DNA of 64,000 nt from Liolophura sinensis. Lineage: Eukaryota > Mollusca > Polyplacophora > Chitonida > Chitonidae. Where the stretch lies: assembly GCF_032854445.1 (NCBI RefSeq), contig NC_088295.1, forward strand, positions 41,217,385 through 41,281,384, read 5' to 3'. The translations under genes and the position numbers were made by a program. The notes under the pieces were generated by a model. That model searched no databases, was not told where the DNA came from, and worked only from the letters and a program-made list of their open reading frames with translations. Below, piece after piece: positions 5,506-64,000 of this stretch. Each line of letters starts with the position of its first letter. Position 1 is the stretch's first letter.

Positions 5506-8500
5506 CTGTCAATCAAGACCACAAATTTGACCAATCATAAGCTGCAAGACTGTTGTAAATAGGTTAACCAGATGACTACATATATGGTTACATACGTGAA
5601 ATCTTCTATTATGGAATGATAAGCAACATTGTCCTGAAAAGGCTTCATGAAATGTCAGGTTTGTGGGAACCACTCATTTCTTGGGACTAAAGTATTTTTG
5701 AGCATGTTTTTAGGAAGTAAGTTGAAGTATTAAAGAATTGGTGGCTCACCCTTTTCTCATGTGTAATGATTTACTTAACTGTTCATGACTACTTGTAAGC
5801 TAACATATCAATGCCAAATTCTACTTAAAAGTAAGAGTTTGAGTTTTGAATAATCAGTCTATTCAGATGTTCTGTTCTATGTGGTTGTGAAACACAAACA
5901 TGTTTGGGATTTTCTTTTTAGGAACAAATTTACACAAGTACAGATATCAGCTTGATCTTGAAAGAGATTAAGAAGACACAAGACATCATAAACAAAATTA
6001 AGGAAATGAGGCAAGGCATGATGGGAACAGCTCTGGTCAGCATTATGAATGAGGTAATATCACAACATTGATTGATAGGAATATATGTGCCTGTTTTCCT
6101 GGGTACACCAAAAAATTGTGAAAAAAGTTACATTTATAAAAAAATGATTTTTGTTCTTTTTTTTCTCTCACTAGAATATGTTTTTTGGCAGTGTGTTAAT
6201 TTTTTTGTTTTTCAGTAGCTGATTTGATGCTGCAAATGTATGACCATAACGTGTGGACTGTTTTGTTTAATGTAAAATGATCAACTTATCTGTACGTATT
6301 TATAGGTATATCTCGGTCTGGTTTGTTTTTAAAAACTGATCATCTCTATTCGTTGGGGAGGAATAGTTACATTTATGTTGATCAACTCACATGTTTGTTT
6401 CAGATCAACACCGAGGTATCTAAATTGCCCCAGTCCCGCTTCTTGCCTCGACCCCCTGGTCATGATCAGCCACTCAGGATAGAGACGCCAAAATTCCAGC
6501 CCCGCTCCTCTGTTGACTGGATTAGTCAGCATGGCTTGAAAGGTGAATTTCTAATGTAATACACTCAGAATACAACCAAACTAACAACATTCACTATTGT
6601 ATTTACATGAAAACATTACATTGCAGTGGTGTTTTTGTGTTTATCAATACCTTGTACATTTGTATGTTGTATTTGGAAAATTATCCAGAAATAATATTTG
6701 GAAATATTTCTTTTTTTTTAGCTAAGCGATTGGACCTGTACCAGGTTCTGGCTCCCAATGCCTACTCGTACAAAGAAGAGTTCATACCTGTCATTAGAAA
6801 GGCTGTACAGTCTCAAGTGCATGAGGTAAGACTTTTTTTGTTCCTGTGATTACCCAGCTATATTATACGGTATGAATGCAGACTGTAGAATCACGCTTTG
6901 ATGAGGTAAGACTTTTATTTGTTCCTGTGATTACCCAGCTATATTATACGGTATGAATGCAGACTGTACAATCACGCTTTGATGAGGTAAGACTTTTATT
7001 TGTTCCTGTGATTACCCAGCTATATTATACGGTATGAATGCAGACTGTACAATCACGCTTTGATGAGGTAAGACTTTTATTTGTTCCTGTGAAAATCCAG
7101 CTATATTATACAGTATGAATGCAGACTGTACAATCACGCTTTGATGAGGTAAGACTTTTATTTGTTCCTGTGATTACCCAGCTATATTATACGGTACGAA
7201 TGCAGACGGTACAATCACGCTTTGATGAGGTAAGACTTTTATTTGTTCCTGTGATTACCCAGCTATATTATACGGTATGAATGCAGACTGTACAATCACT
7301 GTTTGATGAGTTAAGACTTTTATTTGTTCCTGTGATTACCCAGCTATATTATACGGTATGAATGCAGACTGTACAATCACTGTTTGATGAGGTAAGACTT
7401 TTATTTGTTCCTGTGATTACCCTGCTATATTATACGGTATGAATGCAGACTGTACAATCACGCTTTGATGAGGTAAGACTTTTATTTGTTCCTGTGATTA
7501 CCCAGCTATATTATACGGTATGAATGCAGACTGTACAATCACGCTTTGATGAGGTAAGACTTTTATTTGTTCCTGTGATTACCCAGCTATATTATACGGT
7601 ATGAATGCAGACTGTACAATCACGCTTTGATGAGGTAAGACTTTTATTTGTTCCTGTGATTACCCAGCTATATTATACGGTATGAATGCAGACTGTACAA
7701 TCACGCTTTGATGAGGTAAGACTTTTATTTGTTCCTGTGATTACCCAGCTATATTATACGGTATGAATGCAGACTGTACAATCACGCTTTGATGAGGTAA
7801 GACTTTTATTTGTTCCTGTGATTACCCTGCTATATTATACGGTATGAATGCAGACTGTACAATCACGCTTTGATGAGGTAAGACTTTTATTTGTTCCTGT
7901 GAAAATCCAGCTATGTTATACGGTATGAATGCAGACTGTACAATGACGTTTTGTCGAGGTAAGACTTTCTATTTGTTCCTGTGATAGCCAACTCTATTAT
8001 GTGGTATTAATGCAGACAGTCACGGTTTGATGAAGTACGACTTTCAATTGTTACTGAGATTCTCCAACTCTATTATGTGGTATAAATACTGACATACATG
8101 TAAGGCTTTCATTTATTTAACTGATTGTCAAAGTTTATCAGGTTGTGCTTTAATTTAATCTCCACTCACAAATTATTAGAAGCTAGAAATGGCATCTAGA
8201 TTAACTAGTCAGTGTACATATGCAAAAATAGGGAAATATTGTTTGGCCTTGGAAAAAGGGAAGTCTTATTATCATCTCGGCCAGGTCACCACATTGTTGT
8301 CTAAGCTGTTGAGAAAGAGATGATATGAGAAAATAAGAAGAATCCAAAAGAAAATATCGTCCTGTACTGTTGAGGTGTAATATATTTTTGGCAGTCATCC
8401 TGGAGTGATGAAATTATAGCAGGCCATATTAACAGGACTCCGCTATGGCTGATTGGCTATTGTTCTGCAAGTATGATGGTGTCATGTGCAAACCCTCTGG

Positions 8501-51454: not shown

Positions 51455-54400
51455 TCACAGCTGATTAACTACATTTATCGTATTGTCGTTTGAGGTAAAA
51501 TTGAAGACATATAGGGACTCGTAAGGGTAGAAAGATTTGAGGTAGACTGGACTGTAGTTTTCTATGACAGCGGCAGCTGCAGCTTCCTCACTGGAGAATG
51601 AGTGGTTGTTATGTCGGGCTGAAAATAATGAAGTTGAAACTTTGTTAGTTTTACTTGAATGTTTCCAGTGGCTTTTTGTACAATTTCTAGATTGTTGGGC
51701 CACTTATGTGGATCATGTCTGGGCATTGAAATTGACCTTAAAGCTGGATAATGGATTGTATTGTGATATTGAAATAAAATAGTCTCTATATAAAAACAAA
51801 ACAATTTTGGCAACAATATATTAGGTTTTCATTACTATACCTCTGGTCAAATTTCACAGGGCTCGGCGGGGTATAAATATACACACGGTCTCTCCAATAA
51901 CATTTGCCATTTGAGACTCATCGAAATGGCATGTAATAATATGACCTTCAGCTATTCTAGCAGGTACCATTCATTATGTGATTTAATATTCCAGTGTTTT
52001 CAATAAAGCCATAGTAAGATGATTAAAAGAAACACATTACACACTCACCTTGATTAACAAAAAAATTAGCAAAATATTGCGTGACTTTGACAGCATCCTC
52101 GTTGTGGAGCCATTTGTACTTTTCATACCAGATGAAGACGTTCTTCTCCGGATGAAATTGCACACCCCAGACTGGGTACTTATAACCTAGAGGAACAGAA
52201 CACAGGTGTTGTTAGATACATAATCGGTACTGACAGCCTAGAGGGACAGAATACAGACCATCAACACAGGTATTATTATCCGATACAAAGTTACATAGAC
52301 AATAACCCTGATTTCAGCATTAGGTACATAATGTGCACTGATAGCCTTTTGGGACAGAATACAGGCCATCAACACAGGTGTTACTGTTTGATATAAACCT
52401 ACACAGACAATAACCCTGATTTCTGCATTAGATACATAATGTGTAATGATTGCCTAGGGGGGCAGAATACAGACCATCAACACAGGTGTTATTGTCTGAT
52501 ACAAAGTTACATAGACAATAACCCTGATTTCTTCATAAGATACATAATGGGTACCGATAGCCTAAAGGGACAGAATACAGACCATCAACACAGGTGTTAC
52601 TGTCTGAAACAAAGTTACATAGACAATAACCCTGATTTCTGCATTAGGTACATAATGGGTACCGATAGCCTAGGGAGAGAGAATACAGACCATCAACACA
52701 GGTGTTATTGTCTGATACAGTTACATAGACAATAACCCTGATTTCTGCATTAGGTACATAACGGGTACCGATAGCCTAGAGAGACAGAATACAGACCATC
52801 AACACAGGTGTTACTATCTGATACAAAGTTACATAGACAATAACTGGTTGAGGCTCTAAACTTCTGGCATAATCTCATGCAAGGGCACCCCAAAACAGTT
52901 CTCAGATCCTCAATATATACAAAGTCTGGTAAATAACTTTGCGTATATAATAACTTTCATGCTGAAAATCTGTTCCCAACATCAGAGTGATTCACGTCAT
53001 GTTCTTCTCCCCACACATAGCAAGAAAAGCACGATTGTTACAAAATAGTACACAAACTTTACTTGAACTCAAAATCATGAATCAGTACTAGATGTTGATG
53101 TTTTGTACAAACCTTCCATGCTTGACACAAATACACCCCCTTTTCGATCCTTGTTTGTTGACAAAATTCTGAAAAAGTTTCTCAGGTCATCATTTTGCTT
53201 GAATACCTGAAATCAGAAACACTTTCATATTTAAATACTGTTTCATAAATTTGTTTATCTGCCTTGAAGGCCTTGTTTTTAAAATCAATCCTTTCTGTAC
53301 AATAGGCCAATACTGTGTACATGTAGTTGAATTCACAAATATATGATAATACTATTAAATTTGACATATAAACATGTTTTGCTTCTGAGTGATTGAGTGA
53401 TATTCTCACAACAATTTATTTATTTGATTGGTGTTTTACGCTGTACTCAAGAATATTTTACTTATATGACAGCGGCCAGCATCATGGTGGGAGGAAAGCA
53501 AACAGCTGTGGAAAACCCACAACCCTCCATAGGTTGCTTGTAGACCTTCGCATGTATAGCCGCAGAGAAAGCCAGTATGAGCTGGTCTTGAACTCACAGT
53601 GACCAAATTGGTGATAGACCCCTGGGTTATTGTGCTCTGTCACAACAATTCATTTCATCGGCAATAATTGTGCTGACTGTTATTTACATAGACTAACACC
53701 ACTACCTACAACATGTCCACAAATATTACTTTCTACATAAGCTACAGTTGATATACAAACCTCTGGAGTGATCCCAAACTGGTGAGAGTTGGCTGTAACA
53801 TTTTCTGTCTTCAAAGCATCAATAATTTCTTGAGGTGCTTGGCCAAAAATTTCACTCTTTTGGTAATCTTGGGAAGCAAAAGACATTTACCATTAGAATC
53901 ATGCCATGGAAGCTTGTATTAGAAAAAGAAAAAATATCATAGGTAAAAAAATTTAAATTATTTAAAAAGCGGTAAGGAAATCATGGTTTGACCATTGTAC
54001 AATGCAGTGAGACCATGACCCAGGAGTCTCTCACCAATGTGGTCACTGTGAGCCCAAGTCCAGCTAAGGCTGGCTTCCTCTCTGGCTGTACGAGGGAAGC
54101 TCTTCCAGCAAACCTGTGTTGGTTGTGGGTTTCCCATGGGCTCTGCCCGTTTTCCTCCCACCATAATGCTGGCCGCTGTTGTATAATTGAAATATTCTTG
54201 AGTACAGCATAAAACACCCATCAAGTAAATAAATCACTGAAATAGGTTCTTCGGAAATTCCTGGTCACGCAAAGCTGGTGCAGTGTTATACCTGGAGAAA
54301 TGAGATCAAGAGGCAGTGGCAAGTTTTCAGCATCAAAGTGGCCCAGTAGTACTTTCTTTGCAACAAGAGCTGTTAGGAACTGGAATCCCAGGCATGTTCC

Positions 54401-61653: not shown

Positions 61654-64000
61654 TTATGATTTTGTACAGTTAAACACGTATATTGACTCAAAGGGATCAA
61701 GTGATTGGAGATAAAATCTGGAATAACTTTCAATCATGGCGGAAAGAGCGGATTCTTGATTCGGAAATGAATGGCTGTTCCTTCGTGCTGAAAAGAAAAA
61801 TCAAAACATATGTTTGTCAAAATAGTGTGTTATATCTAATATTGGGGAATTAAAATCCCCTGCATTTCAAATTGCAAAAAAGAAAAAACAAAAATCTGAA
61901 TGCTATGAAACGTTAAAATTTACACATGCAGACTTAAGAATCACCACCAGATATTATAAAAGATTACAACTGCGCATATGATGCATAACCAGAGCACCAG
62001 CGAGAGCGTGACGGTTGGAAACAGTTGGCCACAGCGTATATAACTTGCATAAAATCAGGCCTCTTGTCAATTTATCTCAGTTATTCTAACTGTTCGTGCA
62101 AATGCTTTAATAGCAGCAATTTACTTTTATTTGTTATATATTTAATTTTAGATCTATTAACTGTATGAAAACAACTGGGACGGGATACATATTGTAGTTC
62201 GATATATATACTAGTATGTACAGAAACATCCCAGTATAGGTCCTGGATTAATGTTAGGCTTTGTGTAAGAAAATGAAAGAACTCCAAAGATAATAAAAAA
62301 GATAAACAAAAAAAAAGAAAGAAACAATAAAAACACGCATTAATATAGGATAAAGCAAAACACATAACAGAATTCTGTGACTGCAGGATTCTTGGTATAT
62401 AACAAGAATGGGTCGATATGCGAAAATAGCTAAATCACTGGATTTAGTTACTATATACGCTCTCAAGATCGAATGCTTGGTACACTGATTTATAACGCGG
62501 TAAGATTTAAAGGAGAAGAAAATTTAAATATCAATCAAATACCATTGAAAAGAGTATGCATTTCATCGCATTTGCATGCCGAGTACAAATTCTAATATGT
62601 ACCTCCAGTTGATATATTATAAATAAAGTCAGCGCCAAAATTTGCTATGGGCCACTCCATTTTGCCTAAGAACTAGGCCTGAAGTCTTCTGTGTTAGGAG
62701 GAAAATTGCCGTCGGAAACCGCCAATGTGCAGTTCGTACATTTCCGGTAGAACTCTTCTTCCCAGAAGGTAGCGAACAGTACAGTTCATTTTCCGCTTGA
62801 TGATCGGGAAACCGGAATCTTGGACGTAGGTTCCGAGTTTACACGAACAAGCCGGCCTCTCATTGGCTGACAGGCAACACCCCCCCAGCATAAATTACAG
62901 GGTGTTCAAGATGGAGGACGCGATGGACTCAGCGATTGATGCCAGCTTTGCCGTTTTCAGGCTTTACGTGTATGGCGAGGAAAAATTGCAAAATTATGCA
63001 GCAGGCACCACCAGATAGAAAAAAATGTGCTCTTTTCAGCCTATAGTGTCATGTTTTTAAGTTTTCTTCTCTTTTAATATTTGATTGTAGGCCAATAGTC
63101 ATACAACTGAAACATAGCAGGACAAAGTTGATGTTATATGTCACTTCTGTTCACATATACCTCTGTCCACGAAGAAACTGGCGAAGTATTGAGTGACTTT
63201 CACAGCATTGCTCGTATGAATCCAGTTAAATTCCGGATTCCAGTTATAGGACTGCTCTGGGTGGAACTGCACGCCCCACACGGGGTACTGTTTTCCTATA
63301 ACAACATAAAGGCATACCTCCACTAAGATAAGAAAGCTGAACTGTCACTCAATCTTATATTGCAATACACAAAAAACCTTAGTGATTAATGATCCTTTAT
63401 CCATCAGGCATTTTTTTTATATAATAAACGGCTTACAGAGTTAACCAGAACAGTGACGACAATGTGATACTTGGCAAATTGTTAACGTATATTACATGTG
63501 AAATCTGGCCACTTTTGGTTTACTTCATGTATGGAATTATTCTATAACTGCTTAGCGAAGTAACAACTTACACGCCCCATGTATGAACTCTCGATTCTTG
63601 TGACCCAGCGATTGAAATAGAAATATGTTCTCTTGTTTCTCAGAAGTATATGTAAATCTCACTCATGTAGTGTTATTATAAAACACATGCTACTGCTTTT
63701 CAGCAGTTGTATAACGCATTCAATAGTTGCTATCCAATAAGCTGTACGTTTTCAGAAATAAACTTTTCTTAATTTACTTTACTTTAATCACTCGGCAACG
63801 ACCAGCACCTTCACTTCATTTTAACGCATATCGCTGAAGAGTTAATCTCTCAGATGACCAAAGGATTGCCAGAGATCATCGGATCCGAAAATGCACAATC
63901 AGCAACGAATAACCCTTGTCAATCTACCTTCAATTGTGGACACGAAAATCTTGCCATCTCGGTCTCGATTAGTCGACAGTACCTTAAAGAAATCTGCCAG
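61654..64000 (-). CDS. GGH: Gamma-glutamyl hydrolase, copy 2 (5' partial, last three exons)
   Basis: Exons in transcript order: 64000-63928 (cut by the window edge), 63295-63161, 61787-61654. Introns are GT-AG and phase 1 at both visible junctions, exactly as in copy 1. The fragment contains FFKVLSTNRDRDGKIFVST, then the catalytic His in YPVWGVQFHPEQ, NAVKVTQYFASFFVDR and the C-terminus ending CTKS. The last exon is 30 nt shorter than in copy 1, so the C-terminus differs. The nucleophile Cys and signal peptide lie beyond the window. It is transcribed in the same direction as copy 1, which marks a tandem duplication. The large last intron (61788-63160) holds a CpG-rich promoter-like stretch. 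Confidence 0.93.
62690..63018 (+). other. CpG-rich promoter-like stretch with a 35-codon reading frame
   Basis: The segment is visibly richer in CG than its surroundings and has a plus-strand cattggctgac (CCAAT-like). A cataaatt lies shortly before an ATG at 62911 that opens a 35-residue frame (MEDAMDSAIDASFAVFRLYV at its start). I do not recognise the peptide. It could be a first exon on the plus strand, a gene-fragment insertion, or chance. Confidence 0.3.

Follow-up and report, generated by a model that had tools for sequence, protein, structure and literature searches.

The gamma-glutamyl hydrolase gene GGH1, which lies on the minus strand of the 64,000-nucleotide stretch of DNA analysed here (the window), carries in its seventh intron a tandem array whose units repeat the junction between that intron and exon 8, and we think it likely that this array is the product of neutral minisatellite growth over a segment in which a splice junction was included by chance. 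The identity of the gene is supported by Pfam matches of the joined exon translations to GATase class I (E 3e-9) and to Peptidase C26 (E 5.3e-7), and by the match of the end of exon 7 together with exons 8 and 9 to human GGH (1l9x_A; E 2.9e-21); the exon numbers are those of the earlier note on this DNA. Exon 7 has its final base at 53113 (ATGGAAG|GTTTGT) and is followed by intron 7 (52187-53112, 926 nt) and by exon 8 (52049-52186, 138 nt), which begins GYKYPVWGVQFHPEK..., ends ATCAAG|GTGAGT and to which human GGH (1l9x_A) aligns as STMEGYKYPVYGVQWHPEK. TRF reports a repeat at 52212-52844 with a period of 108, 5.9 copies, 88% matches and a score of 965. Taken together with the positions of the acceptors, this delimits a junction array at 52187-52844 on the minus strand, composed of six full or near-full copies and a truncated copy on the exon side, which occupies 658 of the 926 nt of the intron (~71%). 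The units lie head to tail and are highly similar, as is characteristic of a minisatellite, with pairwise identities of 83-93% among the five units compared. The array overlaps an exon edge that is real by homology and its units carry a splice site, which places it among splice-site minisatellites, and the tandem duplication crosses an intron–exon boundary, the arrangement from which intron gain has been described. Given that the HiFi reads of the Liolophura japonica assembly (609.5 Mb, 632 scaffolds) are stated in PMC11068029 to average 8,347 bp at 14x, the 0.66-kb array should fit inside single reads.

The authentic exon-8 acceptor, a predicted site whose authenticity follows from homology, is the AG at 52187-52188 on the minus strand, and the exonic portion of the repeat unit corresponds to bases 1-14 of exon 8. 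Six decoy acceptors are located on the same strand at 52238-52239 (the closest to exon 8, use of which would add 51 nt including an in-frame stop), 52346-52347 (which ends in AAAAG and has the fewest pyrimidines), 52454-52455, 52562-52563, 52670-52671 and 52776-52777 (the distal copy). The earlier note had described six copies of the acceptor adjoining exon 8, each with a pyrimidine tract and an intact AG, and our analysis agrees with it on both points: the array contains six decoy AGs, and pyrimidines occupy 12-15 of the 17 positions from -20 to -4 in the decoys, compared with 14 of 17 at the real site. The 108-bp unit that it gave is the period found by TRF, but only four of the six AG spacings have this length; from distal to proximal they are 106, 108, 108, 108 and 108, with a final 51 separating the last decoy from the real acceptor at 52187. 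The exon-like start is GYRYP in three of the six copies (52776, 52670 and 52562), in accordance with what had been said of the best copies, and GNHYT, GYQCT and GCQYR in the remaining three.

The unit closely resembles the real exon edge. Over the final 19 bases of the intron the decoy consensus agrees with the real site at 17, and over the initial 14 bases of the exon at 11. This likeness is not due to chance, given that among 7,363 other 14-mers that follow an AG in the 64-kb window none reaches 11/14. Three segments make up the unit: an exon-like part (14 nt), a filler (about 25 nt) and the intron end (69 nt). Two candidate sources of the filler were rejected, given that the resemblance to exon 8 beyond base 14 and to the distal flank is no better than that of shuffled sequences (1,887 and 992 of 2,000 shuffles, respectively, reach the score). 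Compared with the unit, the exon-side copy lacks 57 nt, which by eye represent two losses of about 44 and about 13 nt. No other copy contains CTAAC, the A of which is located here at a distance of 26 nt from exon 8; the decoys carry TTGAT at 24.

Comparison with related genes indicates the direction in which the array arose. In the alignment with 1l9x_A, human GGH has EGYKYP at the position of the exon-8 edge, and exon 8 of GGH2 (GKQYPVWGVQFHPEQ; 63161-63295, minus strand) has the same junction position and phase. GGH2 is a tandem paralogue 11 kb from GGH1 (61654-64000 of the window together with locus L004), and a query composed of exons 8-9 recovered, among the matches listed, the GGH1 and GGH2 loci only. 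Intron 7 of GGH2 (63296 to ~63927, entirely inside the window) contains no array. Because the human protein has EGYKYP and GGH2 exon 8 starts at this position without an array, the GGH1 exon is the source rather than the product of the array, and on the basis of these alignments the exon-8 edge is ancestral to it. We also considered a genome-wide satellite family and a dispersed or transposon-borne repeat as the origin of the unit and rejected both, given that a search of the source genome (609,464,459 bases in 632 contigs) gave no copy beyond the GGH1 array. The seven matches listed in that search all fall within the array (a single unit was used and very common words were skipped, such that weak or common copies may escape), and in the window plus 6 kb there is no match beyond the two arrays, of which the second is described below, at E up to 0.01.

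The presence of six additional acceptors beside the real one raises the question of whether they serve the gene. The array could regulate GGH1, with decoys that bind splicing factors or yield non-productive transcripts and a copy number that tunes enzyme output. The intact AGs and tracts about as pyrimidine-rich as that of the real site are consistent with such a role, and when the phase of exon 8 is read from each decoy, all six readings contain at least one stop ahead of exon 8, so that every decoy product would hold a stop; human IFI6 is described in PMC4526556 as using its repeat units as splice donors. However, the decoy acceptors and their tracts show no excess conservation. Across five units (four of 108 and one of 106), 79 of the 108 columns are invariant, comprising 8 of 14 in the exon-like segment, 15 of 22 in the tract plus AG, 21 of 25 in the filler and 35 of 47 in the middle. 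Conservation is thus lowest in the exon-like segment, and we rejected selection on the decoys given that neither this segment nor the tract plus AG is conserved more than the rest. This pattern of columns is what decay without selection gives, five units being few, and the intactness of all AGs weighs little because 79 of 108 columns are invariant anyway. In addition, the CTAAC of the real site is missing from the decoys and the paralogous intron lacks an array, and we therefore regard a regulatory role as quite unlikely.

Another possibility is that the array is a step to a new intron or cassette exon, with duplicated junctions that supply splice signals as in potato RdRp, for which passages of PMC4974935 describe a tandem duplication across an intron–exon boundary that produced a new intron. 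The geometry is the same in both cases, and the segment duplicated in potato likewise consists of an intron 3' end and an exon 5' edge, with tract, AG and exon edge. In potato, however, one duplication gave rise to a new intron, whereas GGH1 has six extra stop-bearing copies inside an old intron. Because all six decoy readings hit stops, a coding product from a new intron is unlikely, and the weak conservation of the exon-like segment (8 of 14 columns) also argues against this alternative, which we consider extremely improbable.

Returning to neutral growth, we infer that the founding segment reached across the 3' end of intron 7 and 14 nt into exon 8 of GGH1, and that it would have been multiplied by tandem duplication and then by slippage or unequal exchange. 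All extra copies lie on the intron side, where six persist as decaying decoy acceptors; the exon-side copy would remain in use because no other leads into exon 8 without first meeting a stop. We expect the exon-side acceptor to be the one spliced, its copy having the consensus branch motif CTAAC as a putative branch point, and use of a decoy would insert stop-bearing sequence, giving a non-productive product. The recurrence of such arrays would reflect the abundance of minisatellites in this genome and not a targeting of junctions, and arrays that span a junction would persist where the exon-side copy still works.

A second exon-edge array is located at 6821-8087 on the plus strand of the window. 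TRF and the sequence itself delimit 15.7 copies of an 81-bp unit, most of which have a donor of the GAG/GTAAGA type (GAG|GTAAGA). A probable real exon end is found at 6825, at the edge of the array, and each of 14 further copies shares with it 13-16 of the 23 bases that precede the donor; Pfam gave no name to the gene that carries it. The statement of the earlier note that both arrays start at a real splice junction is upheld by homology for GGH1, and the start of the 81-bp array looks like a real donor. Donor arrays elsewhere were sampled with a triple donor word, the first 100 of 4,312 matches, at the start of contig C1, yielding eight arrays. One of these provides a further exon-edge case with Pfam support: at locus L013 (contig C1, ~596.7 kb), a 68-bp array of 6.3 copies reproduces the final 56 nt of an exon together with its donor, the exon matches ADH_zinc_N (E 4.3e-9; Pfam), and four copies are identical to it at 52-53 of 56 bases. 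Locus L072 (contig C1:1902150-1902900) is probably another: an exon-like frame (ATRPLLRQIENLQSTYMAQSSSWETVEKNITERL) lies there between CCACAG and GTAAGG, and an 88-bp array repeats its end together with the donor, 34 of the last 40 bases being identical without gaps. This frame may resemble the golgin TMF1; the exon has no Pfam match above the cut-off, and a sub-threshold match to MbeD/MobD was taken as chance. By eye, no edge exon is evident in four other donor-word arrays (L012, L016, L018 and an array at 927 kb with its flank in L031), and for the other two (L071 and L073) the slices did not clearly leave the array. The region that includes L071 (contig C1:1027538-1035450) is occupied over almost 8 kb by tandem 68-bp units, many of which carry AGGTAAGG. 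Ten acceptor-word arrays, drawn from 26 counted among the matches listed, have no coding edge exon evident by eye, with some slices staying within the array, and peptides from acceptor-word arrays L074, L077, L080 and L083 have no Pfam match. Arrays at positions 3763110, 5645073 and 37055748 of contig C1 repeat TTTCAGGT, in which GT comes directly after an acceptor-like AG, an arrangement known from recursive splice sites.

The ancestral exon is retained at one end of the array in all four exon-edge cases, and this is a condition for survival and for recognition, not a purpose. The earlier note had also drawn attention to periods divisible by three. This property is ordinary: it applies to 3 of the 13 arrays sampled elsewhere and to 3 of the 4 in the window and, among the exon-edge arrays, to two of four (108 and 81, not 68 and 88); as a sign of coding function it is ruled out by the periods of the sampled arrays and by the stops in the decoy readings.

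The earlier note also suggested that a recurrent process amplifies junctions in this genome; such a process could consist, for example, of breaks tied to transcription or splicing that are followed by repeat growth. Recurrence is corroborated by L013 and probably by L072, and there is no good evidence for the targeting of junctions. Several observations do favor a junction-specific process, given that four exon-edge arrays (one of them, L072, probable) were found with little effort, that two of the four arrays in the window are of this type, and that raw matches of the donor word in arrays are 2.5 times those of the reversed word. These observations must be read against the general repeat load. 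With TRF thresholds of period 15 or more and score 120 or more, we find four arrays in 70 kb (the window plus locus L011; 3.9% covered), four in 45 kb (nine 5-kb places at round coordinates; 4.3%) and nine in 107 kb round 30 P450 matches (4.3%), the latter being the best 30 of 99 matches listed, some of which overlap to give 97,553 distinct bases. None of the nine arrays at P450 loci touches the matched exon, which alone was considered, the gaps being 33 to 1,314 nt; the two that come closest, L057 and L058, stop ~100 and ~90 nt short of the likely acceptors of P450 exons. These two are 35-bp arrays of 28 and 42 copies.

Word counts give no clear sign of targeting either. In arrays, the donor word has 4,312 matches versus 1,711 for the reversed word (ratio 2.5) and the acceptor word 1,279 versus 742 (ratio 1.7), whereas single words outside arrays in 222 kb number 34 versus 24 for the donor (ratio 1.4) and 47 versus 22 for the acceptor (ratio 2.1); in the window, L011 and the nine pieces only, which are less exon-rich, the counts are 21 versus 11 (ratio 1.9) and 25 versus 9. 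Compared with the single-word ratio, the ratio in arrays is thus somewhat above for the donor and below for the acceptor. We put the excess of the donor word down to a few long arrays, although the count of arrays is confined to the first 100 places of each list: 8 for the donor and 13 for the control, corresponding to ~345 versus ~222 genome-wide (ratio 1.55). This scaling is rough, since those places all lie at the beginning of contig C1. Of the donor words outside arrays, 12 of 21 have an open frame over the preceding 120 bases, which is a loose upper bound for real donors, and because real donors are at most 12 of 21, the finding of exons at two of eight donor-word arrays is compatible with no excess as well as with one. 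The two exon-edge arrays among the four in the window exceed a simple expectation of 0.15-0.54, with P ~0.01-0.10 for at least two junctions being covered by the founding units of four arrays by chance, where the number of junctions is an assumed range of 40-140 rather than a count and the window was picked after the fact. In view of these counts, and of the ten acceptor-word arrays described above, we consider a junction-specific process unlikely; a striking pair of arrays in one window can arise from genome-wide repeat load.

The minisatellite of human IFI6 has a much shorter unit than the GGH1 array. Splice-site minisatellites are already known from that gene (a 1995 paper cited by both PMC4526556 and PMC3618361), and the likeness to GGH1, as far as the citing text describes it, is that of a minisatellite within a gene whose units carry splice sites, with the difference that the IFI6 donors are described as used (PMC4526556) and the GGH1 units have predicted acceptors. 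Genes of fission yeast contain AGGT-containing 24-bp tandem duplications (Zhu and Niu 2013, as cited in PMC4974935), which likewise provide several tandem copies with splice signals, but from the passage citing them the repeated segment there is exonic and the intron is spliced across copies. Since both splice-site minisatellites and boundary-crossing duplications are known, the GGH1 array is a further member. Our literature search, to which most subscription journals were outside, found nothing on acceptor-type minisatellites; the passages of a DDX3Y paper describe no acceptors in repeat units, and no work on mollusc or chiton minisatellites was found, judged by titles and passages.

Arrays of this kind place 6-15 near-identical splice sites beside a real one, and thereby offer a natural test of how site choice depends on exon distance, branch point and exon definition. 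If they are common in chitons, deposited RNA reads, such as those from the Liolophura japonica transcriptome samples SAMN35319765-SAMN35319769 named in PMC11068029, could settle site choice on many genes. A broader proposition, which we hold to be rather doubtful, is that the genome carries hundreds or more exon-edge minisatellites of both donor and acceptor type, that the spliceosome picks among near-identical sites in them, and that their copy number alters the splicing of many genes and varies between individuals. The introns of GGH1 also contain two related repeat copies in opposite orientation (window 53410-53640 and 53990-54230), one with 'gtgttttacgctgtactcaagaatatttt...' and the other with a form of its reverse complement, which we take to be SINE-like.
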